Below are positions 5,670-50,237 of a stretch of DNA of 64,000 nt, piece by piece; the stretch's first letter is position 1, and the number at the start of each line of letters is the position of its first letter. Origin of the DNA: Candidatus Saccharimonadota bacterium (GTDB taxonomy: Bacteria > Patescibacteriota > Saccharimonadia > Saccharimonadales > Saccharimonadaceae). The stretch is from assembly GCA_028289065.1 (NCBI GenBank), contig JAQGHA010000010.1:113422-177421 (forward strand), read 5' to 3'. Under the pieces are notes generated by a model. It was not told the origin of the DNA. It saw only the letters and a list, made by a program, of their open reading frames with translations, and searched no databases. The position numbers and the translations under genes were made by a program.

Positions 5670-5744
5670 AGGGGTATAGTACAGCGGTTAGTGCGTAGGT
5701 CTCCAAAACCTGAAACCGTGGTTCGATTCCACGTACCCCTGCCA
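5670..5744 (+). tRNA. trnW: tRNA-Trp (CCA anticodon)
   Basis: The cloverleaf folds by eye. The acceptor AGGGGTA (5670-5676) pairs with TACCCCT (5734-5740), with discriminator G and an encoded CCA at 5742-5744. The D-stem is GTAC/GTGC. The anticodon stem TAGGT/ACCTG flanks loop CTCCAAA, and the T-arm contains GTTCGATTC. Anticodon CCA reads UGG (Trp). A TGTTAATAT extended -10-like box lies just upstream (about 5651-5659). The 3' half overlaps, antisense, the end of the serine recombinase gene. tRNA 3' ends are common integration sites for mobile elements. Confidence 0.95.
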
Positions 5745-7178
5745 AGAGGAATTATCATTACAAAGAGCCATCATTTCGTATGGTTCTTTTAATTTTAACA
5801 GTAGTTTTCTGCCCGAAAGTTCCGAGTTCGAAAGTACTTTTTTGAGTATTTTTCTTTTACCGAGATAATCGGCAGATGTAAAGATATTATGAGCATTTTT
5901 AGCAACTTCTAACAGATGAGAAACTGTTTCAAGTCTAGTATTGTCAGATAGTTCGAAAGTAGTTAGTTGGGTTTGTAGATTTGCTATAGAAGTTTGGTAT
6001 TCTTTTGTTTTACGTTCGTATAAACTATCGTCAATTTTGTTATCTAAATGGTCTTCGTATATTCTATCTATTCGATTCTCATATTTAGCTATTTCAGACT
6101 TAATAGCATTAGTTTTAGATTCTACGTTTTTTCTAGCCTCAAGTTTATCAGCGTTGATGAGTTCAAGGATTGTTTTAATAACGTCATCAGGTACGATTAG
6201 TTTCTTTAAGGTTTTTTCGTAGTGATAAGTGAATTCTTTTTCTCGTATGTATTGAGCGTCATGTTTATATTTAAATTGATTACAGTGGCCGTAAGTGTAC
6301 TTTTGCTTTTTAGTTTCAAAAGTTACTAAACATCCACATTCGGAACATCGAATCAAACCTTTATATGTGAACGGTAAACCGCCAACTGATTTAGGTTTGC
6401 TTCTATAGCCTCTACGGTTATCTTCACAAGCGTCAAATAATTCTTTAGTAATTATCTTTTCGTAATGATGTTCGTATAAATTGCCATTAACTTGCATGAA
6501 ACCATAATAAAAAGGGTTCTTAAGTACTCGTTCGATATGACTGACGGCACAAGTTATATTAAACTTTTCAAACCATAGTGCCTTAATCTGCCTAAGTGTT
6601 AACGAACCAGTAGAATAGCCTTCAAATGCTTCCTTTACGGCCTGAGCTTCTAGGGGATTGATATCAACCCATTTCTTGCCGTCTTTAACAGCGTTTAAGT
6701 AACCTCTTGGTGCTTTTCCAGCTAACAATCCATCTCTACGCATTTGTGCCTGACGGCGCTTTACGTTATCGCTAATAGTATTTGAGTAAAGTTGTGATGT
6801 GGAAGTATTTAATGAGAGCATAAACCACTGATTAGCTGAGGAGTATTGAGTCAATACTAGGTAATCAGAAATAAAGTGAAGTTCAATCTTTCCAGCCTTA
6901 CAGAGGCTGTTCAGAATCCTCACTTCTGACGAACTTGGGTCACGTGAATAACGGTCTACTTTATCGAAAACAAGGGCAATAGGTTCGGTTATATTTGAAA
7001 GCCTCGAAATGACTTTGTTAAATTCAACACGGTCGCCTTTATATGCACTCTCTTTAATTTCGACTAATTCAAAGTCAAACTCGTTTTTGAGTGCATAATC
7101 TTGCAATTTATAAACCTGAGCAGGTAAAGCCTCGGCTTGGTCATCAGTTGATACCCTGGCAATTAGAATTGCTTTCAT
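5688..7178 (-). CDS. Large serine site-specific recombinase (integrase)
   Basis: A 496-aa large serine recombinase. The N-terminal resolvase domain contains ARVSTDDQ with the catalytic Ser near residue 10 and the Arg-bearing DKVDRYSRD segment. A recombinase domain follows (RRQAQMRRDGLLAGKAPRGY), then a zinc beta-ribbon (IRCSECGCLVTFETKK ... HCNQFKYKH) and a C-terminal coiled coil (about residues 340-420). The family cuts and joins DNA through a 5'-phosphoserine link and directs integration. SD GAGGGAGA precedes ATG 7178, inside the small upstream gene. The last ~19 residues (SWQGYVESNHGFRFWRPTH) are encoded by the antisense strand of tRNA-Trp, so the element probably sits in that tRNA and part of the C-terminus comes from the target site. 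Confidence 0.93.
   Translation of the reverse strand: MKAILIARVSTDDQAEALPAQVYKLQDYALKNEFDFELVEIKESAYKGDRVEFNKVISRLSNITEPIALVFDKVDRYSRDPSSSEVRILNSLCKAGKIELHFISDYLVLTQYSSANQWFMLSLNTSTSQLYSNTISDNVKRRQAQMRRDGLLAGKAPRGYLNAVKDGKKWVDINPLEAQAVKEAFEGYSTGSLTLRQIKALWFEKFNITCAVSHIERVLKNPFYYGFMQVNGNLYEHHYEKIITKELFDACEDNRRGYRSKPKSVGGLPFTYKGLIRCSECGCLVTFETKKQKYTYGHCNQFKYKHDAQYIREKEFTYHYEKTLKKLIVPDDVIKTILELINADKLEARKNVESKTNAIKSEIAKYENRIDRIYEDHLDNKIDDSLYERKTKEYQTSIANLQTQLTTFELSDNTRLETVSHLLEVAKNAHNIFTSADYLGKRKILKKVLSNSELSGRKLLLKLKEPYEMMALCNDNSSWQGYVESNHGFRFWRPTH
5763..5792 (+). terminator. Probable tRNA-Trp terminator inside the recombinase gene
   Basis: AAGAGCCAT (5763-5771) pairs with ATGGTTCTT (5780-5788) and is followed by TT. 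The hairpin lies 18 nt after the tRNA CCA end and within the antisense recombinase coding region, so the same DNA codes for protein on the other strand. Confidence 0.6.
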
Positions 7179-7288
7179 TGATTCTCCCTCGATCTGTCAT
7201 CATTATACTTTAAATTATTCTTTTCAACCTCAAGAAGAATCTCAATATATTCTTTGAGTTCTATAATATCTTCTTGAGTTAGAATCAT
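7175..7288 (-). CDS. 37-aa acidic/helical protein between rep and recombinase genes
   Basis: A short frame, MILTQEDIIELKEYIEILLE then VEKNNLKYNDDRSRENQ. Its ATG (7288-7286) overlaps the Rep stop (7287-7285) as ATGA, and its stop TGA (7177-7175) overlaps the recombinase ATG (7178-7176) again as ATGA. This exact double overlap, the helical charged composition and the lack of any other use for the 107-nt gap support a real, translationally coupled gene. The product looks like a single amphipathic helix. It might regulate or partner Rep or the recombinase (a directionality factor is one possibility), but no family is recognised. Confidence 0.65.
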   Translation of the reverse strand: MILTQEDIIELKEYIEILLEVEKNNLKYNDDRSRENQ

Positions 7289-8091
7289 GGTTGGTGAGCG
7301 TCTATGTACGCATCTATTTCGGGGCTTTGACCTCTTACGAATTCAAACATTTCCCCGTGGTCATTAATATGACTATAAATAGGCTTAACGCCGTTATAGA
7401 AAAAATCGGGGTTATCTTCCTTTATAGGTTTCTTCAAACCTTTGGAAGCCCAGTATCTATTTTTTCCAAAAGTTGCAGTTAAGTCTTTACCTACGTATTT
7501 TTGAAGATATCGAGCAGTATTGGTTTTACTACCCTTATCGAGTATCAATTTAACAGTAGTGAAGCCGTGTGTATACTCTTCAAAGTTATAAACCGGTAGG
7601 TTATTGCTATCGAGCACCGGTTGACCGTTGTTTGGATTTAAGGCATTCGCTAATTTACCGTTATAGCCTCCAAATAACGCATGGAAGTGCAATGCGCCAT
7701 TCTTGTGTCTCTCGGTTACGAATATGTATCTAAATTTTCCATTTCTATCTCTTTGGTTCTTGACCCAGTTTTTTAGACGTTTGATAGAGTTTTCATCATC
7801 ATATCGTTCAGTGCCCATTGTGAAAGTACAGAATAGGTCGAAATCGTTACAGAGAATGTAGTCCTTAATAGATTTTCTGCTTCTCCTGATTGCTCTTTCC
7901 TGATTAGTCTCATAGATATATTCGTTATCTTCGTCTGATCTAAAGAACTTGGTTCGGCTTCCTCTTGGTGCTATTGTTATACCTTTCCTCATGGGCACAT
8001 TTGCCCTATAAATACGAACAGAGTCAGGGTACGTTGTGGCTTGTACGCTAACTGCAATATTCTCATTCATGATGTTATTTTTGTCCCACAT
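7285..8091 (-). CDS. HUH-type replication initiator (Rep / G2P-like)
   Basis: A 268-aa protein with features of rolling-circle initiators: a central ALHFHALFGG segment (H-hydrophobic-H, metal-binding HUH motif) after FVTERHKNG, and downstream NTARYLQKYVGKD with a candidate nucleophilic Tyr. Such enzymes nick one strand at an origin and stay linked through a 5'-phosphotyrosine. The length matches plasmid/phage Rep rather than a large relaxase. It is the first gene of the rep-orf37-recombinase operon, with 4-nt overlaps. Met8 is an alternative start. It suggests the element can replicate or transfer as a circle after excision. It could also act as a minimal relaxase, since none other is seen here. 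Confidence 0.75.
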   Translation of the reverse strand: MWDKNNIMNENIAVSVQATTYPDSVRIYRANVPMRKGITIAPRGSRTKFFRSDEDNEYIYETNQERAIRRSRKSIKDYILCNDFDLFCTFTMGTERYDDENSIKRLKNWVKNQRDRNGKFRYIFVTERHKNGALHFHALFGGYNGKLANALNPNNGQPVLDSNNLPVYNFEEYTHGFTTVKLILDKGSKTNTARYLQKYVGKDLTATFGKNRYWASKGLKKPIKEDNPDFFYNGVKPIYSHINDHGEMFEFVRGQSPEIDAYIDAHQP

Positions 8092-8705
8092 ATCAAGTAG
8101 GGTGGGACGTTGCTCTGGATATTTTTTGATATCGAAAAGAAACCTATATATAGGTACATTAGATTAAAGCTCCCGCTAAAAGTTGGTAATGGCTACCAGT
8201 TTATTTGCAGTTTAAATATACCGATTATTAGGGTATAAAAAATACACGCAAAAAAGATGATAGAGCCTGCTTTCTTATCTTCTTATTGCGTGTATTAATG
8301 CTTAGTACGGAATTATGAACGTTTGTAGATTTCCACGTCTGAGGGCACCGCTGCGTTTTTACCCCAACCATTTAAGGTCTATTCAGGTCTTATGGGGTCA
8401 TTATAACATTATGAAGTCACTGGCGAAAGATTCGGCACAGTGTTTCAATGGCAAGCTCGATTCTAGCACATGACTTCGTCAGGTGCGTATCGGCTTTTAA
8501 GCCGTTGAAACTTTTCCAATATAGTCATTTCTAACAGCCTACTATCATTACCTACCTCTGTAATTAACGTAATAGTACTATTATATTGACGCATATGCTA
8601 AAAGATGTAAATAATACAGCTAAAAAAGCGATACAAGTTGATTTTAATAAGTTATATTACTTTTAGGCCAGAAGGCCAATAACAGGGGGAAAGGGGAAAT
8701 GATGT
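8092..8705. other. Structured non-coding region next to rep; candidate origin
   Basis: There is no convincing gene in 614 bp. Visible structure: an 11-bp perfect inverted repeat AATACACGCAA (8241-8251) / TTGCGTGTATT (8286-8296); ACCCCA...TGGGGT around 8360-8400 enclosing two direct copies of AGGTCT; and nested stems GAAGTCA (8413-8419) / TGACTTC (8471-8477) and GTTTCAATGGC (8442-8452) / GCCGTTGAAAC (8501-8511, one mismatch). Stem-loops directly upstream of a rolling-circle rep gene are the usual place for a nick origin and Rep-binding repeats. A structured RNA is the alternative. Confidence 0.45.
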
Positions 8706-8897
8706 ATGTACTTTGTAATTAGAAAGAATCCAACTTGGAATCAGCAGTACTATTACTTGGTAAAAGCTAGCGGAAACCACGCTACGCTAGCAACCTCAGA
8801 AATGTACGTATCGAAACAGGCAGCAAAAGATTCACTAAATATCATATTTCGTGAGTCTAAAGACGCTACTTATACAGATGAAACCGGTGAGCAATAG
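8706..8897 (+). CDS. DUF1508/YegP-like small protein
   Basis: A 63-aa protein, MYFVIRKNPTWNQQYYYLVK then ASGNHATLATSEMY and SKQAAKDSL. The Y-F-x-hydrophobic strand, the ATSExY motif and the SKxxAK helix are typical of a single DUF1508 (YegP) domain, a small alpha/beta fold of unknown function often found in mobile regions. GGGGAAAGGGGAAA just upstream serves as the SD, so this gene does not follow the leaderless pattern. A terminator hairpin follows at 8921-8950. It lies between the candidate origin and the cassette array. Confidence 0.75.
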   Translation: MYFVIRKNPTWNQQYYYLVKASGNHATLATSEMYVSKQAAKDSLNIIFRESKDATYTDETGEQ

Positions 8898-8920
8898 CTA
8901 GTTCAACATCTTAATATCTT

Positions 8921-8953
8921 ACACCCATGTAGTTAGCGCTATATGGGTGTTTG
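8921..8953 (+). terminator. Terminator after the DUF1508 gene
   Basis: ACACCCAT (8921-8928) pairs with ATGGGTGT (8943-8950), followed by TTTG. Confidence 0.6.
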
Positions 8954-9078
8954 ATTCAACAAATATTATAGTAACAAACAATATTGAAAAAAACAGCATT
9001 AAATATGAAATCATTATATATCGCTCTTTCGTATATCAATAGACTAGCAACTTCTTAAGTGATACAATTCCATTAATT

Positions 9079-10047
9079 ATGGATGAGATACAGCTTTTAC
9101 TTGATGACCTATTTGATGGGCTAGATGAAACAAAACTTATAAGGGAAGGGGAAGACCTTAACTTTACCGATGTAAAGCAGGAGGTTCTTGTTACGCTAAA
9201 GTATCTGAGGTTACTTTCAGAAAATAAAAAATGGTATTATGAACTATCTAATCCGAAACAGCAAGCTGTATTGCAAGTTTCGCTTCAAACTATTGGCTAT
9301 CTTTTAGATATGAAAAACTTTACTATCAATCAGGCACGAGATTTTCAGCAAGAATGGAGGCAAATAATTGCCCAAGTAAGGGATTCGTATGATACATTCT
9401 ACGTAAATATAGTAAATGGTTTAATGTCATTTGTAGCATTAGAGGTTGCATCTACTAAAAATATTGATAGTGATTTGAAGAAGATAAAGAGCGGCCTGAA
9501 AGAAATACATTCTGCTGCAAAAGAAATCGAAGCAATTCGGCAGAATGTAGAAGTTGCAGCAGGAAAGACAAGCATAACTTCCTTTCAAACTTCTTTTGTA
9601 GAGCAAGCTAAAAAGCACGCCGATTCTGCTCAAAACTGGTTCAAAGGCTTAATAGTTAGTGGCTTAGTTGTTGCCTTACTCGGAGTAGTCTTTGTTATAT
9701 TAAGCTTTAACCAGGATTTTTTAAATACTGACCCTCGAGTGATCATCATTACTCTTACAATTAAACTTGTTGTTCTTTCGTCTGCAATATATTTTACCCG
9801 TATTTGTTCAAAAAATTATAATGCTCAAAAACATTTACAAACGATAAATGAACATCGGGTAAATGTTCTAGGTTCCTTACCTTCATTTATTGATTCGGTT
9901 AATGGAGATAATAAAGACTTAATGATTACAATTGGAGCAAAAACTGCATTTGAAGCTGGAGAAACAGGCCTTATTAGTACGAAGGAGGGTGCTGGTACGA
10001 GTAATGATGAGTTAACCCGTATCCTTGCTGATTTTATGAAGAGATAG
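9079..10047 (+). CDS. Two-TM coiled-coil protein upstream of the first array repeat
   Basis: A 322-aa protein. Residues 1-130 are acidic and helical, about 150-190 form a probable coiled coil (SDLKKIKSGLKEIHSAAKEI), and two TM helices follow (LIVSGLVVALLGVVFVILSF and IIITLTIKLVVLSSAIYF). A ~90-residue cytoplasmic tail ends the protein. I do not recognise the family. Paired TM helices after a coiled coil recur in membrane-acting defence effectors, but no effector domain is identified here. TGATACAAT (9063-9071) precedes ATG 9079 in the leaderless style. Its stop TAG lies inside the first array repeat, so it behaves like the first cassette gene. Confidence 0.6.
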   Translation: MDEIQLLLDDLFDGLDETKLIREGEDLNFTDVKQEVLVTLKYLRLLSENKKWYYELSNPKQQAVLQVSLQTIGYLLDMKNFTINQARDFQQEWRQIIAQVRDSYDTFYVNIVNGLMSFVALEVASTKNIDSDLKKIKSGLKEIHSAAKEIEAIRQNVEVAAGKTSITSFQTSFVEQAKKHADSAQNWFKGLIVSGLVVALLGVVFVILSFNQDFLNTDPRVIIITLTIKLVVLSSAIYFTRICSKNYNAQKHLQTINEHRVNVLGSLPSFIDSVNGDNKDLMITIGAKTAFEAGETGLISTKEGAGTSNDELTRILADFMKR

Positions 10048-10080
10048 TTCTAAACTCGTCCACTAGGGGCTGCCAAGCAT
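10046..10080 (+). repeat. Cassette site 1
   Basis: It starts AGTTCTAAACTC and carries the full core GTCCACTAGGGGCTGCCAAG. It overlaps the stop of the upstream gene (TAG 10045-10047). A type-A terminator follows (AGTCTCT/GGAGGCT, about 10094-10111, then T5). Confidence 0.85.
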
Positions 10081-10118
10081 GAGCAGTATAAAAAGTCTCT
10101 GTTTTGGAGGCTTTTTGT

Positions 10119-10150
10119 TTGACTTAATATTACAAAAATGTTATTATAAT
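10119..10150 (+). promoter_or_regulatory. Promoter for the 10203 gene
   Basis: TTGACT (10119-10124), a 17-nt spacer, then TATTAT (10142-10147) overlapping TATAAT at 10145-10150. It starts inside the T-run of the site-1 terminator. Confidence 0.7.
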
Positions 10151-10202
10151 ATCGATCATCTCGATCAAGTTGTATCCACTGAATTCTTAAAAAGGAGCTT
10201 TT

Positions 10203-10418
10203 GTGAAAAAGCACATCATTGCCATGATCATCATGGCAGCAGGATCTGTGATTGGACTGCTTGCGGGTCTGATCGTTCTTCTGTCGACCGACTACAATTG
10301 GATCGCTGCCGTAATCACGACCGTTGTCATCGTCGTGGTCATGGGATTCATCGGCTTCGTGATCGCCGCCATCAACATGATCCACATCGCAAAAAACCCT
10401 TCGAGGATGCTCAGTTAG
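10203..10418 (+). CDS. 71-aa two-TM membrane protein
   Basis: It starts at GTG 10203 after AAAAGGAGC (SD). The protein is nearly all membrane: MKKHIIAMIIMAAGSVIGLL, AGLIVLLS, a short polar turn around STDYNW, then AAVITTVVIVVVMGFIGFVI, ending IAKNPSRMLS. No family is recognised. Codon use is GC-rich and Gly/Val/Ile-dominated, unlike the AT-rich Nudix gene in the same cassette. It has its own canonical promoter and a strong terminator (10435-10488). It is one of several GC-rich small membrane-protein genes in this window and may have entered the array as a complete unit. Confidence 0.65.
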   Translation: MKKHIIAMIIMAAGSVIGLLAGLIVLLSTDYNWIAAVITTVVIVVVMGFIGFVIAAINMIHIAKNPSRMLS

Positions 10419-10434
10419 GTCTTCATAGTAACAC

Positions 10435-10488
10435 ACCCCGCCTCGAGCGTTGAGCCCCGTTGCTCCGTTGGAGTGGCGGGGTTCTCGT
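10435..10488 (+). terminator. GC-rich hairpin terminator after the 71-aa gene
   Basis: CCCCGCC (10436-10442) pairs with GGCGGGG (10475-10481) around a structured loop. A short T-rich stretch follows. Confidence 0.65.
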
Positions 10489-10542
10489 TTTTCTGGATAA
10501 TGTTCATATTTATGAGTTCCGAAATTTTGTTATAATTCAGCA

Positions 10543-10959
10543 ATGAAACAAGGTCAATACCCGGAGTCATTTTATAGAGTATCAGTAAAAGCAGTTATTC
10601 AGAATGATAGCGGCGAAGTATTAGCTGTTCATGAAGGCGAGGACTGGACACTTCCAGGAGGCGGTGTAGATCATGGAGAAGATCCGTTGACGGCACTCAA
10701 GCGCGAATTATATGAAGAGGCATTTATAACTTCAAAATTTGAAGCAGAATTCATAGGCACGGAATCATTTTACGTTGATAGTAAAGACGCTATGGCATTC
10801 TGGCTCATCTACAAAGTAAACATGACCGAACATAACTTTTCATTTAAACCAGGCGAAGATGCTGATGAAGTAGCATTTAGAAATCCTGCAGATTTCATAA
10901 AAAGCGATTCGTTATTTGCACGTCTTATATTCAAATATAGTTCGGAGCTCGTCCACTAG
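10543..10959 (+). CDS. Nudix hydrolase, C-terminus supplied by the cassette repeat
   Basis: A 138-aa protein with a full Nudix box: GGGVDHGEDPLTALKREL then YEEAF, matching G-x5-E-x7-R-E-U-x-E-E. The family hydrolyses nucleoside diphosphates linked to another group; substrate is unknown. TATAAT (10531-10536) sits 6 nt before ATG 10543, so the transcript is probably leaderless. The last residues SSELVH and the TAG stop are read from the next cassette repeat (site 2). It shares a cassette with the 10203 gene, as no site separates them. Confidence 0.88.
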   Translation: MKQGQYPESFYRVSVKAVIQNDSGEVLAVHEGEDWTLPGGGVDHGEDPLTALKRELYEEAFITSKFEAEFIGTESFYVDSKDAMAFWLIYKVNMTEHNFSFKPGEDADEVAFRNPADFIKSDSLFARLIFKYSSELVH

Positions 10960-10973
10960 GGGCTGCCAAGCAT
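10939..10973 (+). repeat. Cassette site 2
   Basis: AGTTCGGAGCTC plus the full core. It supplies the last six codons and stop of the Nudix gene. No short hairpin follows, but a canonical promoter does. Confidence 0.85.
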
Positions 10974-10980
10974 ATACATA

Positions 10981-11009
10981 TTGACATGTAGCTGTATTTA
11001 TGATAAAAT
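10981..11009 (+). promoter_or_regulatory. Canonical promoter for the 11167 gene
   Basis: TTGACA (10981-10986), a 17-nt spacer, TAAAAT (11004-11009), beginning 7 nt after cassette site 2. Confidence 0.8.
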
Positions 11010-11064
11010 GTTAACACACCGTGAAGCGCATGCTCCGATGTACATTTACAATTGTCTGTTGCTC

Positions 11065-11120
11065 CTAGTGAGTGGAAGTAAGGTTATTTAATTTTACAGC
11101 TTTACTCCCACTCACTATAG
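11065..11120 (+). promoter_or_regulatory. 5'-UTR hairpin ahead of the 84-aa gene
   Basis: GTGAGTGG then AGTAA (within 11065-11081) pair with TTACT and CCACTCAC (within 11102-11120), with one bulge per arm and a ~19-nt AT-rich loop. It lies between promoter and SD, so it is transcribed. It may protect the leader or attenuate; it is not a known riboswitch that I recognise. Confidence 0.5.
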
Positions 11121-11166
11121 CTGCTCATTGATTCATCCACGCACCATCCAACCAAAGGAGCAAAAA

Positions 11167-11421
11167 ATGGCCGTACAGGAATCAGAAACCGAAGTTCCGC
11201 TTTACGCCACACAAGGTGGAGGAATCGCCGCCTACAAAAACGGCAAGTTTGTCTGGCACTCAGAGATTCCTGGCTTCATGATTGCAGAAGGCGCTAAGGT
11301 CGGCGATGTGATCCCTGATGAATGGGGTGTTGTCGGAATCAACCCGGCTGCCCATCGTGAGATGGAGCAGGATCAGACGGACTCTTCTGACGACTATTGG
11401 GACTACAATCCCATGCCGTAA
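11167..11421 (+). CDS. 84-aa acidic protein, cassette gene, unknown function
   Basis: ATG 11167 is chosen because AAAGGAGC lies 6-7 nt upstream; earlier in-frame codons precede the SD. The protein starts MAVQESETEVPLYATQGGG, continues IAAYKNGKFVWHSEIPGF and ends with an acidic tail (SSDDYWDYNPMP). There is no signal peptide or TM segment and no family is recognised. GC-rich codons, its own -35/-10 promoter, a ~160-nt leader with a hairpin, and a 16-bp perfect hairpin downstream mark it as one of the GC-type units. Soluble cytoplasmic location is likely. Confidence 0.55.
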   Translation: MAVQESETEVPLYATQGGGIAAYKNGKFVWHSEIPGFMIAEGAKVGDVIPDEWGVVGINPAAHREMEQDQTDSSDDYWDYNPMP

Positions 11422-11446
11422 TTCCAAAGCAACAGAGAATAGTATC

Positions 11447-11503
11447 CAGGAGGGATGAGTAATATAAGCGTATACCTGCGTTTCAATTTACTCATCCCTC
11501 CTG
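11447..11503 (+). terminator. 16-bp perfect hairpin after the 84-aa gene
   Basis: CAGGAGGGATGAGTAA (11447-11462) is fully complementary to TTACTCATCCCTCCTG (11488-11503). There is no classic T-run. A second inverted repeat (11504-11545) follows immediately. Confidence 0.7.
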
Positions 11504-11545
11504 CAGTTCCCCAAATGTATTTATTGAAATATATTTAGTGAACTG
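11504..11545 (+). repeat. AT-rich inverted-repeat element, copy A
   Basis: CAGTTC (11504-11509) / GAACTG (11540-11545) enclose an AT-rich segment with CCAAATGTATTTATT. It shares position (after the hairpin of a GC-rich gene) and the TATTTATT motif with copies B (13138), C (17994) and D (50724). Confidence 0.45.
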
Positions 11546-11561
11546 ATAATTATAGAGATAT

Positions 11562-11596
11562 AGTTCTAAACTCTTCCACGAGGGGCTGCCAAGCAT
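11562..11596 (+). repeat. Cassette site 3 with terminator-promoter module
   Basis: AGTTCTAAACTC then a core with two changes (TTCCACGAGGGGCTGCCAAG). The hairpin at about 11612-11629 (ATCTCC/GGAGGCT) runs into T5 and then TGTTATGAT (-10 at 11636-11641), 6 nt before ATG 11648. Confidence 0.8.
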
Positions 11597-11647
11597 AAGC
11601 ATGATAGAAAAATCTCCGATTTGGAGGCTTTTTGTTATGATGAAGCA

Positions 11648-12124
11648 ATGGATATTAATAACCCATTTGAAACATTTTCAAAGACTGCATTTCGCTTAGA
11701 AGCATTGCCCGAGTATATAGTGGACAGTGAAAAAGCAGCTTTTAAAGAATATTTATCGTCAGGAAAGATTCATGACAAGTCTGCTTCGAGTTGGGCTAAA
11801 ACGGTTAATGAAAATATCCAGGCAGGCAAGTCGCTGAAACGGCTTAGACTTATTTCTGACGAACTTACATCATATGAACAGTATGAACTTTTAGCCTATC
11901 CAGGGATAAAATTTGGAGAGGAAATAAGACTCAATGCGCGTACAGTTTACCAAGATGACTATCAATATGATTTTTGGTTTTTTGATAAAAAATATATTTC
12001 TCAAATGAAATATGAGGTTGACGGCACCTATCTAAGCTCTGAAACACGAATAGCGAATAAAGAAGAAAGAGAGATGCTGGACTATTGGATGAGTGTTTTT
12101 GAAGAATCAGAAATAATCAAATGA
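11648..12124 (+). CDS. DUF6879-like cassette protein
   Basis: 158 aa from ATG 11648, chosen because TATGAT ends 6 nt upstream; the longer frame would begin inside the terminator. It has the arrangement of actinobacterial DUF6879 proteins: an N-terminal helical segment (KTAFRLEALPEYIVDSEKAA), then a conserved patch DDYQYDFWFFDKKYISQMKY with a D-F-W-x-F-D motif, and a C-terminal helix. DUF6879 function is unproven; members are common beside regulators in Streptomyces. It ends with TGA at the edge of cassette site 4. It is probably soluble and cytoplasmic. Confidence 0.65.
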   Translation: MDINNPFETFSKTAFRLEALPEYIVDSEKAAFKEYLSSGKIHDKSASSWAKTVNENIQAGKSLKRLRLISDELTSYEQYELLAYPGIKFGEEIRLNARTVYQDDYQYDFWFFDKKYISQMKYEVDGTYLSSETRIANKEEREMLDYWMSVFEESEIIK

Positions 12125-12158
12125 TTTCGATGTTCGTCCATTAGGGGCTGCCAAGCAT
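12124..12158 (+). repeat. Cassette site 4 with terminator-promoter module
   Basis: The left half is diverged (ATTTCGATGTTC) and the core has one change (GTCCATTAGGGGCTGCCAAG). Hairpin AGTCTCC/GGAGGCT at 12173-12190, then TGCTATGAT (-10 at 12198-12203). Confidence 0.82.
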
Positions 12159-12210
12159 AAGCATGATATAAAAGTCTCCGTTTTGGAGGCTTTTTGCTAT
12201 GATTGTAGCA

Positions 12211-12654
12211 ATGACTAATGAATACAAAGAAGCAATTCAAGCAGACAAGAATGATACACTCACCGAATGGCTGATTGATTATTTAAGTGACATTGAGCGA
12301 GGTCGTAATATTGCCCTTGCTGGTGGATTGGCCGAAGACGGTCAGTTCCATACTAATTTGATTAATTATCCTATCGAGAAATTTAAGATACTTCTAGGTC
12401 CAGACACCTCATTTCTATATTTTGAAGAACCGAATAAATTCAACACACGGGTAGAAGCGATGGTTGAAAGCTTAAAGAATGGCTGGAAACCTGTACCTTT
12501 TATCGCATCAGATTTATGGAACGAAGGACTTGAACTTAATGACGGAGCTCACCGAGCCGAAGCATTGAGAAGGTGTGGAGTAAAAACATACTCAACCGTC
12601 TTCTATTTTAGAAATCAAAAAGCGCTCGATAGTTTTGTTGAATCTCTTGAATAA
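12211..12654 (+). CDS. ParB/sulfiredoxin-fold-like cassette protein
   Basis: 147 aa from ATG 12211, which lies 7 nt after TATGAT; the earlier ATG at 12199 overlaps the -10 box and is unlikely. Near the C-terminus, WKPVPFIAS...LELNDGAHRAEALRRCG resembles the ParB N-terminal / Srx-like fold (D-G-x-H-R-x-x-A-L, where ParB has G-x-x-R). That fold binds nucleotides (CTP in ParB, ATP in sulfiredoxin) and also occurs in nucleases and kinases. No DNA-binding HTH follows, so plasmid partitioning is unlikely. It ends next to cassette site 5. Confidence 0.7.
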   Translation: MTNEYKEAIQADKNDTLTEWLIDYLSDIERGRNIALAGGLAEDGQFHTNLINYPIEKFKILLGPDTSFLYFEEPNKFNTRVEAMVESLKNGWKPVPFIASDLWNEGLELNDGAHRAEALRRCGVKTYSTVFYFRNQKALDSFVESLE

Positions 12655-12687
12655 GTTCGAAGCTCGTCCACTAGGGGCTGCCAAAGA
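12653..12687 (+). repeat. Cassette site 5
   Basis: A near-consensus left half plus the core up to TGCCAA, then AGAGCTTATG, the type-B downstream arm also seen at sites 6 and 10. An AATAGATCAC/GTGGTCAATT-like hairpin follows (about 12699-12724). Confidence 0.85.
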
Positions 12688-12739
12688 GCTTATGTTTTAA
12701 TAGATCACAGTAATGTGGTCAATTTGATTCCCCATACAT

Positions 12740-12768
12740 TTGACTTTTCATATGTCATATGCTATAAT
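12740..12768 (+). promoter_or_regulatory. Canonical promoter for the 12843 gene
   Basis: TTGACT (12740-12745), a 17-nt spacer, TATAAT (12763-12768). Confidence 0.85.
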
Positions 12769-12842
12769 ATAACTGTACTTGTGAGAAATACTCCAAGTTC
12801 AGGATTTGGAATTTCACATCTATTTCTATCGATTGGAGTATC

Positions 12843-13100
12843 ATGGGCCTCGGCTCGCACCCCGGACTATCCGTCCTGCATCGTCTTCGTAATGGAGAAA
12901 CGGTTGAAATCGAGAACACCGGTATCTTCGTCAAGCAAATCCCTGGTGAACTTCAGCCTGACGATGATTATGTCGGCGCTCGTAATACGGTCAACCTGTT
13001 AAGCGTTGACCGTATTGAGCAAGGCTGGGTTGTTCCTCGTGAGGCTGGTTACAGCTTCGACCTCGGCGAGTGTGTTAAGGTCGAGATTGTCGACTGCTAA
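12843..13100 (+). CDS. 85-aa cassette protein of unknown function (GC-type)
   Basis: It starts at ATG 12843 with GGAG 5 nt upstream. The protein MGLGSHPGLSVLHRLRNGET continues VEIENTGIFVKQIPGEL and ends ECVKVEIVDC. Predicted to be all-beta, small and soluble, with no TM segment or signal. No family recognised. GC-rich codons, the strong promoter and the perfect 9-bp GC hairpin downstream place it with the GC-type units. It shares its site-bounded cassette with no other gene. Confidence 0.6.
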   Translation: MGLGSHPGLSVLHRLRNGETVEIENTGIFVKQIPGELQPDDDYVGARNTVNLLSVDRIEQGWVVPREAGYSFDLGECVKVEIVDC

Positions 13101-13112
13101 ATCCTATCCTTC

Positions 13113-13139
13113 GCCCGAGAGCCCAAAAAACTCTCGGGC
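13113..13139 (+). terminator. GC hairpin after the 12843 gene
   Basis: GCCCGAGAG (13113-13121) pairs perfectly with CTCTCGGGC (13131-13139); it has an A-rich loop and lacks a 3' T-run. It adjoins inverted-repeat copy B. Confidence 0.65.
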
Positions 13140-13183
13140 AACACCCAGAGTTATTTATTGTGAATAAATAGTTGTGATTGTTG
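13138..13183 (+). repeat. AT-rich inverted-repeat element, copy B
   Basis: GGGCAAC joins the preceding hairpin, followed by TTATTTATT / AATAAATAG and GTGATTGTTG. It is the same type as copies C and D. Confidence 0.5.
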
Positions 13184-13189
13184 AACGAA

Positions 13190-13224
13190 AGTTAGAAGCT
13201 CGTCCACTAGGGGCTGCCATAGAG
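13190..13224 (+). repeat. Cassette site 6 with type-B terminator-promoter
   Basis: AGTTAGAAGCTC plus a core ending TGCCAT. The type-B hairpin (AATAGA...TCTATTTTTG) runs into TGTTATTAT (-10 at 13266-13271), 6 nt before ATG 13278. Confidence 0.85.
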
Positions 13225-13277
13225 CGTATGCTTAAATAGAATATATTGTAATGGTCTATTTTTGTTATTATGTAGAC

Positions 13278-13766
13278 ATGGAAAAGCCTATAAATTTGTA
13301 CCATGCATCGCCTCAAAAAGATGTTTCTGAATTTGAACCACGGAATGAGTCTCCACGTTACACAGGCGAAGAGAATCTTGTATTCGCAACGCCACACAAG
13401 GAGGTGGCTGCCATGTTTCTAGTACCGAAAGATATTCCAACGGAAATAGGTAAGTACGGAGATGATCATGTAGTATTTGTAAATGGTACTGCAGAGGAGT
13501 TTAAGGCGCATGATATAGGCGGTGCGATTTATACCCTGCCTAATGATACGTTTGTAACCGATAGAGGAATTGGTATGGGTGATGTCGAGTGGGTAAGTAA
13601 CCAGTCGGTTAAGCCTATTTCCAAGACATTATACGAAACATCCATTGATGCACTACATGATAACCACGTAAGTGTGTACTTCTTAAATAAGGATGTCTTT
13701 TCTAGAATTCAAGCCAACCCGAGCAATGGGCTTGAAATTGTCAAAAGTTCGAAGCTCGTCCACTAG
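13278..13766 (+). CDS. ADP-ribosyltransferase-fold-like cassette protein, tail from repeat
   Basis: 162 aa starting MEKPINLYHASPQKDVSEFE. The opening pattern (LYHASPQ...FEPR) and VFATPHKEVAAMF resemble small proteins with an ART/RNA 2'-phosphotransferase-like fold. The family call is tentative and no classical R-S-E triad is assigned. ATG 13278 lies 6 nt after TATTAT (leaderless). The C-terminal SSKLVH and the TAG stop are encoded by cassette site 7, so the last six residues come from the recombination site. The same tail occurs on the Nudix protein. Confidence 0.7.
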   Translation: MEKPINLYHASPQKDVSEFEPRNESPRYTGEENLVFATPHKEVAAMFLVPKDIPTEIGKYGDDHVVFVNGTAEEFKAHDIGGAIYTLPNDTFVTDRGIGMGDVEWVSNQSVKPISKTLYETSIDALHDNHVSVYFLNKDVFSRIQANPSNGLEIVKSSKLVH

Positions 13767-13780
13767 GGGCTGCCAAGCAT
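13746..13780 (+). repeat. Cassette site 7 (consensus copy)
   Basis: Exact consensus: AGTTCGAAGCTC plus the full core. Read in frame 1 it encodes SSKLVH-stop. Hairpin AGTCTCC/GGAGGCT is followed by TGTTATGAT (-10 at 13821-13826). Confidence 0.9.
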
Positions 13781-13833
13781 AAGCATGATGATAAAAGTCT
13801 CCGAAATGGAGGCTTTTTGTTATGATGAAAGTA

Positions 13834-14610
13834 ATGAAAAACTTAGTTATTGCCGTAAGTCCTGATTCTTCCCTTAAACTTCTTGGAGAATATGCAGACA
13901 TCATAGTACTTGATAAAGAATCTGTTCCGGTCACTATGCCATTTTATGAAACAGTTTATATTAGAAGCCACTTCGGTCGACCAGAAACCTTACCACAGGT
14001 TTATCGCACAGAAACTGAAGATATTATTAATCGAGCAAAACAGATAAATCCAAATATTAACTTCGTCGATGGCACCGACTCAGTAGACCTAATATTAGAC
14101 ACTGAAGACAAGTGGCGACAGTACGAGATTTACAGTAGCTTTATGCCGAATACAAAATTACTAAATGATAATTTAGACGTATCAGGTTTTGAGCGTCCAA
14201 TCTTTAAAAATCGGTTATCATCACATGGCAATGGGGTTACTTGGAATATAAATGAAACGACAATTCCCAGAGAAGATTGGCTCATTCAAGAATCACTAGA
14301 TATCACAGAAGAGTTACGCGTATACGTGATTAAGGGCAAAGTCTACCCAGTCGGTGCAATCCGTCAAAGCAAAACAATTGATCAAGGCACACAAGCAATT
14401 GACTCACGATATCTAACACCAGATGAAGTAGACTTCTGTCTAAAGATAGGGCTTCAAGCTCCCAGTTTAGATATAATTGGCCTAGATATTGCGCGTACTT
14501 CAAATGGCAAACTTTATCTGATTGAAGTGAATAGGTCACCCGGATTCGGTAAGTTTGCTGAATTAACAGGCGTTAATCTTGCAGATTTTCTGTATGATGA
14601 AAAGTTATAA
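13834..14610 (+). CDS. ATP-grasp (RimK-like) ligase, cassette gene
   Basis: 258 aa from ATG 13834, 7 nt after TATGAT. The ATP-grasp pattern is visible: an N-terminal pre-ATP-grasp domain (NLVIAVSPDSSLKLLGEYAD), then RPIFKNRLSSHGNGV (ATP-binding Lys and Gly-rich loop), WLIQESLDITEELRVYVI (hinge) and DIIGLDIARTSNGKLYLIEV followed by NRSPGF (Mg-binding D/E-x-N). Such enzymes join a carboxylate to an amine or thiol through an acyl-phosphate; the substrate is unknown. Its stop is the TAA in the degenerate site 8 (KL-stop). Confidence 0.82.
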   Translation: MKNLVIAVSPDSSLKLLGEYADIIVLDKESVPVTMPFYETVYIRSHFGRPETLPQVYRTETEDIINRAKQINPNINFVDGTDSVDLILDTEDKWRQYEIYSSFMPNTKLLNDNLDVSGFERPIFKNRLSSHGNGVTWNINETTIPREDWLIQESLDITEELRVYVIKGKVYPVGAIRQSKTIDQGTQAIDSRYLTPDEVDFCLKIGLQAPSLDIIGLDIARTSNGKLYLIEVNRSPGFGKFAELTGVNLADFLYDEKL

Positions 14611-14637
14611 CTTCGTGTACAGTGCCCTGCCAAGCAT
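14603..14637 (+). repeat. Cassette site 8 (degenerate)
   Basis: AGTTATAACTTCGTGTACAG then TGCCCTGCCAAGCAT: only the outer parts match the consensus and the GGGG block is lost. The downstream module is intact (AGTCTCC/GGAGGCT, TGTTATGAT with -10 at 14677-14682). Confidence 0.7.
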
Positions 14638-14689
14638 AAGTATTATAGAAAAGTCTCCGTTATGGAGGCTTTTTGTTATGATAAATATT

Positions 14690-14973
14690 ATGAATACCGA
14701 CTATGCAATCATAAGGCCACGACTGCACGCTGATTTTGAATTACCAACAAGACAAGAACTTTTGAAGTTGAAGCCTGGTGACAGTGTAAAGCTCATGTTT
14801 GAAGTTGGGAATGAAAATATCGAAAGAATGTGGTAACCCTTGCAGATACTTCGCGTGATGATACCTGGATAGGAACTATAGATAACGATGCTACCCAGCC
14901 ACTCACCGCAAATATATTGCCTGCAGATAAAGCCATAAGCTTTCATCCTTTAGATATTATCGCTACTTATTAA
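14690..14973 (+). pseudogene. DUF2314-like cassette gene with a one-base frameshift
   Basis: From ATG 14690 (7 nt after TATGAT) the frame reads MNTDYAIIRPRLHADFELPT ... KPGDSVKLMFEV, GNENIERMW, then stops at 14834-14836. A different frame continues at once with VTLADTSRDDTWIGTIDNDA and on to DIIATY-stop at 14973, next to cassette site 9. Joined (ERMW-VTLADTS), the product looks like a normal ~94-aa DUF2314-type protein (EVGNxxxERMWV...GTIDND). One missing G at 14831-14834 (TGG-GTA read as TGG-TAA) explains the break. It could be a real loss of function or a sequencing error. Confidence 0.7.
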
Positions 14974-15008
14974 AGTTCGAAGCTCGTCCACTAGGGGCTG
15001 CCAAGCAT
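14974..15008 (+). repeat. Cassette site 9 (consensus copy)
   Basis: AGTTCGAAGCTC plus the full core. Hairpin AGTCTCC/GGAGGCT, then TGTTATACT (-10 at 15049-15054), 6 nt before ATG 15061. Confidence 0.9.
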
Positions 15009-15060
15009 AAGCAGTATTAAATTAGTCTCCGTTTAGGAGGCTTTTTGTTATACTCATGAT

Positions 15061-15558
15061 ATGAATTTAGAATTTCCATATCAGTTAACGACATTCTTGG
15101 ATGACGAACCAACAATAGGTGAGCCAGTATATTATGGTGAGAACGGATGGTATCCACAAGTTGCGCTAAAGCGTAGGTTCAAAGCAGTCGGTATTACGGA
15201 GAATGAACTTCTTTTAAAAATGACAGAATACTTCAACTCAAAAAGAAGTTTTGAAATAAGAACTGGTGAACTTACACAACCTGAACGAATGCCAGTCAAA
15301 ATACTTGAAATAGCTCCAAATCCTGAGCTTATAAATTTTCACAATGATTTGATATCGTTTTTAGGAAATGCTATTTTGTCTAGATATCCTGAACGGGATG
15401 GTGCGAACTATTTACCACATGTAACAGCAGAATTTGACGGAAAAATGGTGATTAATGATAAAAAATACATTAATCAAACTTTTGATATTAAACGTATATA
15501 TTTGCTAAAAGATATTAGCGACGAGAATTCTGTTGCGTATAAAAGTTTTGATCTTTAG
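15061..15558 (+). CDS. 2H phosphoesterase / 2'-5' RNA ligase-like cassette protein
   Basis: A 165-aa protein. The C-terminal half has YLPHVTAEFDGK, matching the H-x-T/S motif of 2H phosphoesterases (LigT, 2'-5' RNA ligase-like, cyclic phosphodiesterases). The first H-x-T is not obvious; WYPQVALKR occupies its usual place, so the active site may be incomplete or shifted. Active family members process 2',3'-cyclic or 2'-5' RNA linkages. It is leaderless (TATACT ends 6 nt before the ATG). The stop at 15558 is 10 nt before cassette site 10. Confidence 0.65.
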   Translation: MNLEFPYQLTTFLDDEPTIGEPVYYGENGWYPQVALKRRFKAVGITENELLLKMTEYFNSKRSFEIRTGELTQPERMPVKILEIAPNPELINFHNDLISFLGNAILSRYPERDGANYLPHVTAEFDGKMVINDKKYINQTFDIKRIYLLKDISDENSVAYKSFDL

Positions 15559-15568
15559 TTCGTTGAAA

Positions 15569-15603
15569 AGTTCGAAGCTCGTCCACTAAGGGCTGCCATA
15601 GAG
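15569..15603 (+). repeat. Cassette site 10 with type-B terminator-promoter
   Basis: AGTTCGAAGCTC plus a core with one change (GTCCACTAAGGGCTGCCAT). Hairpin AATAGACTACT/AGTAATCTATT is followed by TTTTGCTATTAT (-10 at 15645-15650), 6 nt before ATG 15657. Confidence 0.88.
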
Positions 15604-15656
15604 CTTATGTTTAAATAGACTACTGTGAAGTAATCTATTTTTGCTATTATTGAAAG

Positions 15657-16292
15657 ATGATAATTAACGATGTGCCATTCATTTCAAATACGCCCGACGA
15701 TACACATTGTTTGCAGGCTGCGTATATGAGCATTGCAAAGTATTTCGACCCAAAGTTCGATTTCTCGATGGACGACTGGGCTATTCTTACTGGTTATGAA
15801 GAGGGCTTGGGTACTTGGGCCAACGCTGGGCTAGTTTGGTTTACTGAGAATGGTTACGAAGTAAAACACTATGAAACATTCGATTTTAAAGAGTTTATCA
15901 AAAGCCCTAAAGAATATATGATACAAATTCATGGTATAGAAGCTGGAAACTGGGGCTATGAACACACTAATGTTCCTAAAGAAATACAACGAATGAAAGA
16001 ACTATTAGCTGCAGACATTGTCGAGAACAAAGAGCCGAGCATTGAGGACATTAAAAACGGTCTGAACGAGGGATATTTACCTCGAGTAACTATTAATGCT
16101 TATGTACTTGACGAAGAAGTTGGATATGAAGGTCATGCGGTCGTCATTACAGGATATGATGATAAGTTTATAGTTCTTCATGATCCAGGCTTGCCTGCAT
16201 TAGCTAATCGAAAAATTCCTGTCGATGTATTTATGAATGCTTGGTCTGCTCAAGAAAAAGAACTTGATTTAATTCGTCTAATTCGTAAGTAA
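15657..16292 (+). CDS. C39-like cysteine peptidase domain protein
   Basis: A 211-aa protein with the peptidase C39-like order: Cys in THCLQAAYMSIAKYF (residues ~17-31), His in GYEGHAVVITGYDD, then an Asp in IVLHDPG. This arrangement fits papain-fold peptidases related to ABC-associated bacteriocin processing enzymes, but no transporter is fused or adjacent. No signal peptide is visible, so it probably acts in the cytoplasm. It is leaderless, with the ATG 6 nt after TATTAT, and its stop lies 1 nt before cassette site 11. Target unknown. Confidence 0.78.
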   Translation: MIINDVPFISNTPDDTHCLQAAYMSIAKYFDPKFDFSMDDWAILTGYEEGLGTWANAGLVWFTENGYEVKHYETFDFKEFIKSPKEYMIQIHGIEAGNWGYEHTNVPKEIQRMKELLAADIVENKEPSIEDIKNGLNEGYLPRVTINAYVLDEEVGYEGHAVVITGYDDKFIVLHDPGLPALANRKIPVDVFMNAWSAQEKELDLIRLIRK

Positions 16293-16293
16293 A

Positions 16294-16328
16294 AGTTCGA
16301 AGCTCGTCTACTAGGCGCTGCCAAGTAC
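16294..16328 (+). repeat. Cassette site 11 (slightly degenerate)
   Basis: AGTTCGAAGCTC then GTCTACTAGGCGCTGCCAAG: two changes in the core. Hairpin GTCTCC/GGAGAC (16344-16360) and TGTTATTAT (-10 at 16368-16373) follow. Confidence 0.85.
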
Positions 16329-16379
16329 AAGCATTATAGAGATGTCTCCATTTCGGAGACTTCTTGTTATTATGTAGAT

Positions 16380-16687
16380 ATGACAAATAGCTACCAAAGT
16401 CTTATAAAAAATAAGTTAGTAACCTTTACTCACGAATGTAACTTGAATGAGCCAGTATTTGATGACGTAACGAGTGTAGCGGCAATTCCTTCTTATGTGT
16501 AAACCCGGCCCATCAAGGAAAAGGAGTAGGTGAAGCAATAATGCATCAGTTATTCAAAGCAGTATATGGACTAAATGTTGCATACGTATATGCAAAATTA
16601 TCTAAGACGAACCCATTTAAAGAAAAAATGAAGCACTCAGGTTTTAAAGAAACTGGAAACAGCTTATTTATGGATGTCTATAACTAA
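16380..16687 (+). pseudogene. Broken GNAT acetyltransferase cassette
   Basis: ATG 16380 (6 nt after TATTAT) opens MTNSYQSLIKNKLVTFTHEC ... DVTSVAAIPSYV-stop (TAA 16500-16502). An overlapping different frame then reads FLCVNPAHQGKGVGEAIMHQ and continues to NSLFMDVYN-stop at 16687. The Q-G-K-G-V-G acetyl-CoA loop identifies GNAT motif A. The two parts together give only about 100 residues, shorter than the usual ~150, so a frameshift plus an internal deletion is likely. The promoter, site and terminator of the cassette remain. Confidence 0.8.
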
Positions 16688-16721
16688 AGTCTAAGCTAGT
16701 CCATTTACAGCTGCCCAGCAT
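16688..16721 (+). repeat. Cassette site 12 (degenerate)
   Basis: AGTCTAAGCTAGTCC then ATTTACAGCTGCCCAGCAT. It aligns over its full length with several mismatches. The following hairpin (AGTCTCT/AGAGGCT, 16736-16753) and T5 are kept, but no TATGAT follows. Confidence 0.65.
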
Positions 16722-16846
16722 ATGTAATATAGAAAAGTCTCTAATGTAGAGGCTTTTTGTCTGACTGCTCATGTTTGCATTTGGTTCGTAAAAATGAGTA
16801 AATACAAATGCTACTCACAACCTACCTTGCAAAGAAGGAGTAAGAA

Positions 16847-17056
16847 ATGAGAGTACCTGTAGTAGTCACGGTTACACGAGCCGAAGATTCGACTCAAGTG
16901 ATCGATTCACTGCATCAGAACGACGTCGTCTACTTTCCACGAATGTCGGAGGATTCCCCCTAAACCGTGGTTTCGGTTGGTGGATGTCGCTATTACGGTT
17001 CGAAGGATATCATCGATAACATCGGTGATATCGCGTACCGTGCCAGTCGTGGGTGA
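16847..17056 (+). pseudogene. GC-type small gene interrupted by an in-frame stop
   Basis: After SD AAGGAG, ATG 16847 reads MRVPVVVTVTRAEDSTQVID then SLHQNDVVYFPRMSEDSP and TAA (16961-16963). The same frame stays open afterwards: TVVSVGGCRYYGSKDIIDNI then GDIAYRASRG-TGA (17054-17056), with GC-rich coding character on both sides. The simplest reading is a 69-codon gene broken by one nonsense change. Alternatively only the 38-aa part is translated. Family unknown. A GC hairpin (AGCCCGCTCT / AGAGCGGGCT with T-run, about 17070-17147) follows. Confidence 0.5.
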
Positions 17057-17156
17057 ATAGTCCACAATCAACAGCCCGCTCTACGATAATGGAATTGCCC
17101 AACCTTTGGTTGATGAGCTGCTTATCTACTAAAAGAGCGGGCTTTTTCATACAAAT

Positions 17157-17190
17157 AGTTCGAAACACATCCACTAGGCCGCCCAACATA
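17157..17190 (+). repeat. Cassette site 13 (degenerate, last)
   Basis: AGTTCGAAACACATCCACTA then GGCCGCCCAACATAAGC: the left half is good, the right half diverged. No type-A or type-B hairpin is clear after it. No further copy is seen to the right. Confidence 0.65.
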
Positions 17191-49844: not shown

Positions 49845-50237
49845 TTATTGAACAGCTATTAGTTCAATATCAAATACTAAATCACTATTCGGTGGGATAG
49901 CTGATGAAGCCCGGCGGCCACCATAGGCCATTTCTGAAGGAATTACTAAGCGCCGAGTGCCGCCAACTTTCATACCAGGTACACCAATAGTCCAGCCGTC
50001 AATTACTTGATGAAGCCCGAAAGTTGCTGGACGACCGGAGTCGTGGCTGCTTTCAAAAATTGAACCGTCGGTACAGAGCGCGCCGGTGTAGTGAGCAGTA
50101 ATGGTAGCGCCAACTGGAACTTCTTCGCCGGTTCCAACAACCAAATCAATAGTTTGGAGTTCTGCGACTTTAGTTTTCTTTCCTAGCGGAATATAGTCTT
50201 GTAACGTAGTGCCTTTAAGCTTGTGTGGATTAGTCAT
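49845..50237 (-). CDS. FKBP-type peptidyl-prolyl isomerase
   Basis: 130 aa. After ~30 extra N-terminal residues comes a complete FKBP domain: VPVGATITAHYTGALCTDGS, FESSHDSGRPATFGL, VIDGWTIGVPGMKVGGTRRL, VIPSEMAYGGR, IPPNSDLVFDIELI. It has no signal peptide, so it catalyses proline isomerisation in the cytoplasm. It is leaderless: on the minus strand TGGTATAAT lies 6 nt before the ATG. It is a single gene convergent with the giant surface protein and shares its terminator. Confidence 0.93.
   Translation of the reverse strand: MTNPHKLKGTTLQDYIPLGKKTKVAELQTIDLVVGTGEEVPVGATITAHYTGALCTDGSIFESSHDSGRPATFGLHQVIDGWTIGVPGMKVGGTRRLVIPSEMAYGGRRASSAIPPNSDLVFDIELIAVQ

Follow-up and report, generated by a model that had tools for sequence, protein, structure and literature searches.

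The question raised by this locus is why the gene of a large serine recombinase should end inside a tRNA gene, and whether the C-terminus encoded there matters to the enzyme. The features concerned, in the window (the whole stretch of DNA analysed, 64,000 nucleotides), are the following:

5670-5744, plus strand: tRNA-Trp(CCA), called by ARAGORN, the putative integration target, its sequence intact after integration
5688-7178, minus strand: large serine recombinase, 496 aa, with Resolvase and Recombinase domains and a weak Zn ribbon; codons 479-496 and the stop are antisense to tRNA-Trp
5688-5744, minus strand: coding overlap of recombinase and tRNA-Trp (W479 QGYVESNHGFRFWRPTH stop), 57 nt
5762-5789, plus strand: terminator-like hairpin serving tRNA-Trp, within the recombinase coding sequence, on the element-borne P' side

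The first-pass annotation had placed the last ~19 codons of the recombinase inside the tRNA gene, its stop in the D-arm region and the tRNA terminator inside the recombinase gene. These placements held: the overlap consists of 18 codons plus the stop, which reads TTA on the plus strand (5688-5690) within the D-loop, and the terminator-like hairpin was found inside the recombinase frame. The Trp479 codon, TGG, is the antisense of the tRNA's CCA (5742-5744), and ARAGORN and a search of the assembly found a single copy of this tRNA gene. Our reading, to which we give a probability of about 80%, is that the overlap is the attL junction of an element that forms one unit of a tRNA-anchored cassette array, and that the antisense-encoded tail is most likely a tolerated by-product in the recombinase branch to which the window belongs.

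The recombinase matched the Pfam Resolvase (6e-16) and Recombinase (9e-10) domains, while its zinc ribbon scored 23.6 bits, slightly under the Pfam cut-off of 25.3, and PHROGs assigned the protein as an integrase. Foldseek comparison of its AlphaFold model (mean pLDDT of 81) showed matches to the SPbeta-type, Bxb1, PhiC31 and LI (Listeria) integrases; a sequence search of the PDB gave zero matches. S10, a serine of the catalytic type, was invariant in an alignment of 21 homologues. Homologues were present in 90 of the 294 genomes of the order (E<=1e-20). No close relatives were obtained from viral contigs searched with the single recombinase protein, and a profile search of viral contigs retrieved relatives with ~30% identity.

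The overlap might be no more than an accident of annotation, the functional recombinase ending before the tRNA and the antisense frame being open by chance, and most tRNA-Trp genes are in fact open for 18 codons in the relevant antisense frame. We regard this as very improbable, since there are zero stop codons between the conserved domain and the tRNA, since conservation extends up to W479, the last invariant residue of the 21-sequence alignment, which lies opposite the CCA of the tRNA, and since the same geometry recurs. Among the order's 30 closest homologues, 25 had their 3' end in an antisense tRNA (9 tRNA-Asn, 7 tRNA-Gln, 6 tRNA-Gly and 1 each of tRNA-Trp, tRNA-Ser and tRNA-Pro), three further homologues of these 30 adjoined a 24-nt half-site with the tRNA spacing and without a recognised tRNA, and distant relatives across the phylum had the same antisense ending, with tRNA-Asn, tRNA-Ser and tRNA-His. 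Judged from this comparison of sequences, the overlap is not due to chance. It was near-universal among the homologues, but mostly in integrated-looking elements. The length over which the antisense frame stays open was mostly 18 codons for tRNA-Trp and usually 13 for tRNA-Asn, while tRNA-Gln was open throughout; tail length is a property of the tRNA type. Odd C-terminal peptides such as DSNPR at the end of many recombinases of the phylum would be explained as antisense tRNA read at attL.

The limits of the element were set by its two junctions, and its parts are these:

5745-10075, no strand assigned: recombinase-bearing element, array unit 1, 4331 bp
5721-5744, plus strand: B-type (attB) half-site GTTCGA-N12-CTGCCA, 24 nt, comprising the T-arm and acceptor end of the tRNA
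5739-5746, plus strand: shared att core CTGCCAAG, common to attL and attR (10070-10077)
10047-10075, plus strand: P-type half-site GTTCTA-N17-CTGCCA, 29 nt, at the right end of the element (attR)
7285-8091, minus strand: rolling-circle replication protein (REP_ORF2-G2P), neighbour of the recombinase
8706-8897, plus strand: DUF1508 small protein, a gene of the element
9079-10047, plus strand: element gene for a protein of unknown function

Comparison of the junctions showed that the left one reads TACCC-CTGCCAAG-AGGAATT and the right one, at 10047-10077, ACTAGGGG-CTGCCAAG-CATGAGC, so that the core, CTGCCA(AG), consists of the final 6 bp of tRNA-Trp and 2 bp beyond them. The crossover would take place within this shared core. 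No direct repeat of the tRNA 3' half was found elsewhere in the genome, because the duplication is only 6-8 bp long. The first-pass annotation had considered the case of an attachment site in the 3' half of the tRNA, with a core outside the coding overlap as the refuting observation. The core does lie inside the overlap and at its edge, and the location shrinks to the last 6 bp of the tRNA. When the ends of the element were joined in a script, the excised reading ended in CNDNSSWQPLVDEFRTISS and the integrated reading in CNDNSSWQGYVESNHGFRFWRPTH, each followed by a stop, which predicts a shift of the C-terminus upon integration from SWQPLVDEFRTISS to SWQGYVESNHGFRFWRPTH. The suggestion that excision alters the recombinase C-terminus is thus borne out at the level of prediction, whereas the companion suggestion that excision might remove the stop is not, the predicted excised form still ending at a stop. 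The predicted circle junction joins ACTAGGGGCTGCCA of the P side to AGAGGAATTATC, and the predicted restored site, which retains the complete tRNA, joins tRNA-Trp to AGCATGAGC. The same pairing, with differing integrated and predicted excised tails, was found for the elements of 13 relatives, a few of whose right ends had a low site-matrix score and are less certain. No RDF candidate was found.

The two kinds of half-site differ in length by 5 bp, the tRNA form being GTTCGN-N12-NNGCCA (24 nt) and the cassette form GTTCGN-N17-NNGCCA (29 nt). A pattern search permitting lengths of 25-34 nt retrieved 15 sites from the order, spread over 11 of 392 genomes and with a length of 29 nt for 14 of them, while the reversed control pattern gave 0 matches. 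In a GTDB scan the matches in Saccharibacteria-labelled records were 28-29 nt long, and those scattered in other phyla may be due to chance. In serine integrases the zinc-ribbon motif is 5 bp closer to the centre in attB than in attP (PMC3783163); with lengths of 24 and 29 nt, the tRNA end thus has the character of an attB half-site, and the repeat that of an attP half-site. The 5-bp difference was confined to the left half, the right half showing none, and the 29-nt sites look like duplex half-sites. Sites in G244, G269 and G150 were considered as free attP junctions and dropped, their half-sites having the 24-nt B-type spacing.

Beyond the right end of the element, the window contains a series of short units:

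10076-10968, plus strand: cassette 2 (NUDIX protein), with a P site at its end
10969-11591, plus strand: cassette 3
11592-12153, plus strand: cassette 4 (DUF6879)
12154-12683, plus strand: cassette 5
12684-13219, plus strand: cassette 6
13220-13775, plus strand: cassette 7 (DUF6886), with an ORF that stops at the TAG within the P site
13776-15003, plus strand: cassette 8 (ATP-grasp), with a decayed P-like copy inside at ~14610 and a homologue in the G179 array
15004-15598, plus strand: cassette 9 (2'-5' RNA ligase-like), with homologues in the G101 and G179 arrays
15599-16323, plus strand: cassette 10 (C39 peptidase-like)
16324-17186, plus strand: decaying distal cassette(s), the last P-like site (17158-17186) being degenerate

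The 29-nt half-site was present in 10 copies from 10047 to 16323, with a degenerate copy at 17158, and a 19-nt piece of it gave 9 matches when 0.03 were expected. Besides the proteins named above, the cassettes of the window encode unknowns. Between 10076 and 16323 the right halves of the cassettes are either AGCATAAGC or (T)AGAGCTTATGC, which is nearly the reverse complement of the former. The idea that these right halves are the native downstream flank of tRNA-Trp was dropped: similar ones occur in arrays at other tRNAs, and the flanks of other tRNA-Trp genes are different. Sequence on the 3' side of tRNA-Trp is variable; in the window this region covers about 5745-49845 and includes an M23 peptidase gene and further genes at 18-27 kb. 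A neighbour homologous to window positions 49845-50237 lies ~3.4 kb behind tRNA-Trp in relatives (e.g. G295, L067) and 44 kb behind it in the window. Five copies of a diverged repeat with ~165-bp spacing and Trp-Gly-like coding, perhaps of an RCC1-like repeat protein, were seen at 40450-41163.

The array-bearing stretches under study held 76 cassettes, with a median of 686 bp. The longest ORF was on the tRNA strand in 56 of the 60 cassettes under 2 kb. An extended -10 box was found 4-8 nt before the start codon at 37 of 76 cassette starts (3 expected), and a hairpin before a T-run, as in a terminator, in 38 of 76 cassettes (about 2 expected); many cassettes therefore look like self-contained, possibly leaderless, expression units. 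With a position weight matrix trained on the sites of the window and of the pattern search, and in stretches picked for a tRNA, a recombinase or a P site, a choice that biases positional counts, 76 of 85 P sites were downstream of a same-strand tRNA, 0 were solely upstream of one, and the other 9 were in a stretch without a same-strand tRNA. The NN doublet, whose columns were left unscored in the matrix, was the tRNA's own in 65 of 76 sites (CT for tRNA-Trp, GA for tRNA-Asn, CA or TA for tRNA-Gln). Arrays from different genera held related cassettes, and one cassette family occurred in a tRNA-Gln as well as a tRNA-Trp array; cassettes common to several arrays had at most about 62% protein identity between them. 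At the species-level sampling of these genomes, recent cassette movement was not seen.

The recombinase element was located directly at the tRNA, with cassettes farther out, in the window and in G029, G171, G096 and G206. In G226, a cassette half-site was joined to a degraded recombinase 3' end within the array (a P-P' junction, the tail ending in STWQPLVDVFRTFVMTN and a stop), as expected if later cassettes had landed at the tRNA. Insertion would thus be tRNA-proximal, and the recombinase element would be the newest unit of the window array. Other insertions split the tRNA from the array in G297 and in G034/G181, where tRNA 3' fragments were still joined to a cassette right half; at L070 (G297) a different recombinase overlaps tRNA-Trp, and the tRNA 3' fragment of ~48 bp joined to the cassette right half is 8.4 kb away. 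At L148 (G153), a nearly identical terminator follows both tRNA-Trp and a single P site (8698 and 9493), as if a cassette had copied the native tRNA flank.

The repeats could instead be mere terminator and promoter modules spread by homologous recombination or by another recombinase, in which case the element would be an ordinary island beside an unrelated array. This is compatible with the DNA matches to the window array, found in 29 of 295 genomes of the family and in many cases to the site module alone, and with the best matches between genomes, many of which covered site modules only, at 80-94% identity, while matching genes had 64-70%. It is also compatible with the right halves of the cassettes (AGCATAAGC or TAGAGCTTATGC), which are unlike the P' half at the left end of recombinase elements, and with G130, where a cassette directly follows tRNA-Trp and a homologue search did not find the recombinase. 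However, the 29-nt P half-site of the cassettes, tRNA-matched core included, also terminates the recombinase elements themselves, and the P-P' junction of G226 is inside an array. We consider independent spread of modules unlikely, and favour the array reading, with which the cassette at tRNA-Trp in G130 also agrees.

In the mechanism that we propose for such an array, a large serine recombinase would insert its own element at the 3' terminus of a tRNA gene, with the T-arm and acceptor end (GTTCGN-N12-NNGCCA) as attB half-site. A crossover within NNGCCA would leave the tRNA with its full sequence, and the element would supply the new terminator. The second half-site of the element (P') would be the 3' end of the recombinase gene, and the reading frame would therefore cross the core and take its last 10-30 codons from the far side: from antisense tRNA if the element is integrated, or from a P half-site (GTTCGN-N17-NNGCCA) if it is circular or if a cassette has landed in front of it. 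The other units would be non-autonomous cassettes, each composed of a right half-site, a terminator, a promoter, a gene and a P half-site, inserted successively at the tRNA end and probably moved in trans by the same recombinase family.

The remaining question is whether the change of tail has a function. The first-pass annotation had suggested that the form of the enzyme is coupled to its integration state, and the window branch speaks against this: tails track the tRNA type, the last invariant residue is W479, and residues 477-496 had a pLDDT below 50 in the AlphaFold model. The tail of this branch, disordered in the model and dictated by the tRNA, is probably passive. A functional switch, in which the P half-site would encode a selected free-form tail (W-L-P-L-V-D-V-L-R-N) and integration would substitute antisense tRNA, altering activity or stability, appears doubtful for the window family. 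In 14 elements the tails predicted for the excised form have WLxL(V/M)DxLR in common, and of the six frames of the P site, that of the recombinase was the most conservative and the freest of stops by a wide margin. Yet the P sequence is also preserved in cassettes, where it is not translated, the results of column shuffles, frame-specific as they are, do not separate constraint on the DNA from constraint on the protein, and past the 29-nt site the tails of the window branch are unrelated.

A case for a switch can also be drawn from the phage branch, on IMG/VR contigs, whose recombinases had ~30% identity to that of the window; at L169, phage structural and lysis genes adjoin the junction. A P-type half-site was present at the junction in L169 and L160/162/164/165, and tRNA-Gln at the same place in L166 and L158/159. 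The recombinases of L166 and L169, which are 78.5% identical, diverge at the core and form a natural attL/attP pair. Over a conserved C-terminal stretch of 24 residues, the free-form tails scored 61, 61 and 40 BLOSUM units in comparisons where shuffles reached at most 25-28, and in two of the three comparisons the changes fell mostly on third codon positions. This stretch was predicted to be a helix (pLDDT of about 70-84) and ends in LAA, IAA or VAA, a resemblance to the ssrA tag, and the tRNA-Gln-integrated relatives were without it. No end repeats were found in the phage contigs, nor was the L166 element's far end. Coupling to the integration state may thus be real in the phage branch, which makes integration-state control of an integrase testable, while for the window branch we retain the passive tail.

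More broadly, we lean towards the view that Saccharibacteria possess a serine-recombinase counterpart of integrons, anchored on tRNA genes, with circular single-gene cassettes of matched doublet and a recombinase that is itself a cassette-like unit, and that in its phage relatives the crossover also switches the C-terminus of the recombinase from a helix whose ending is degron-like to antisense tRNA. If true, this would be a serine-recombinase gene-capture platform in bacteria with very small genomes, the variable regions behind tRNA genes in Saccharibacteria would be explained, and serine-integrase att sites would have a readable rule (tRNA core doublet plus 5-bp spacing). No earlier description of such a system was found in the open-access literature.

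Comparison with the large serine integrases (LI/A118, Bxb1, PhiC31 and SPbeta) showed the same domain order, fold, invariant catalytic-type serine and short core, as well as an attP half-site 5 bp longer than that of attB (PMC3783163). Here, however, attB is a universal part of tRNA genes, their T-arm and acceptor end, the core doublet goes with the tRNA type, and attP overlaps the 3' coding end of the recombinase itself. Tycheposons and tRNA islands (Islander/TIGER; PMC4383910) resemble the present arrays in that cargo units have accreted at a tRNA anchor, but mainly employ tyrosine integrases and restore a tRNA 3' fragment. SCC islands with Ccr recombinases also use a serine recombinase, insert at the 3' end of a conserved gene without disrupting it, and have a region downstream of attB divided by direct-repeat att sites (PMC4723332). 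SCC membership calls for a CcrA, CcrB or CcrC recombinase and an attB in rlmH, whereas here the CcrB model gave 69 bits against a cut-off of 900, far below the cut-offs of the CcrB and CcrC models, the target is tRNA-Trp, and each unit is a cassette of ~0.7 kb with a single gene and, in many cases, a terminator and promoter of its own. In mycobacteriophage BPs, attP is inside a reading frame, and integration changes the C-terminus of the protein and removes an ssrA-like tag (PMC4557955). An attP core in frame with differing integrated and free products was likewise found here, as a prediction for the window junction and as the natural pair L166/L169, but it is the repressor that is switched in BPs and the recombinase itself here, and the tag-like ending is confined to the phage branch. 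A search of the source genome with the integron integrase model TIGR02249 gave nothing over the cut-off, and two tyrosine recombinases of this genome are on other contigs. Like integrons, the arrays consist of small cassettes, each with one gene and a recombination site, that share an orientation and lie beside an anchor at whose end insertion apparently takes place; they differ in having a serine rather than a tyrosine recombinase, a tRNA end rather than attI, many cassettes that appear to carry promoters and terminators, and a recombinase whose gene travels in a cassette-like unit.
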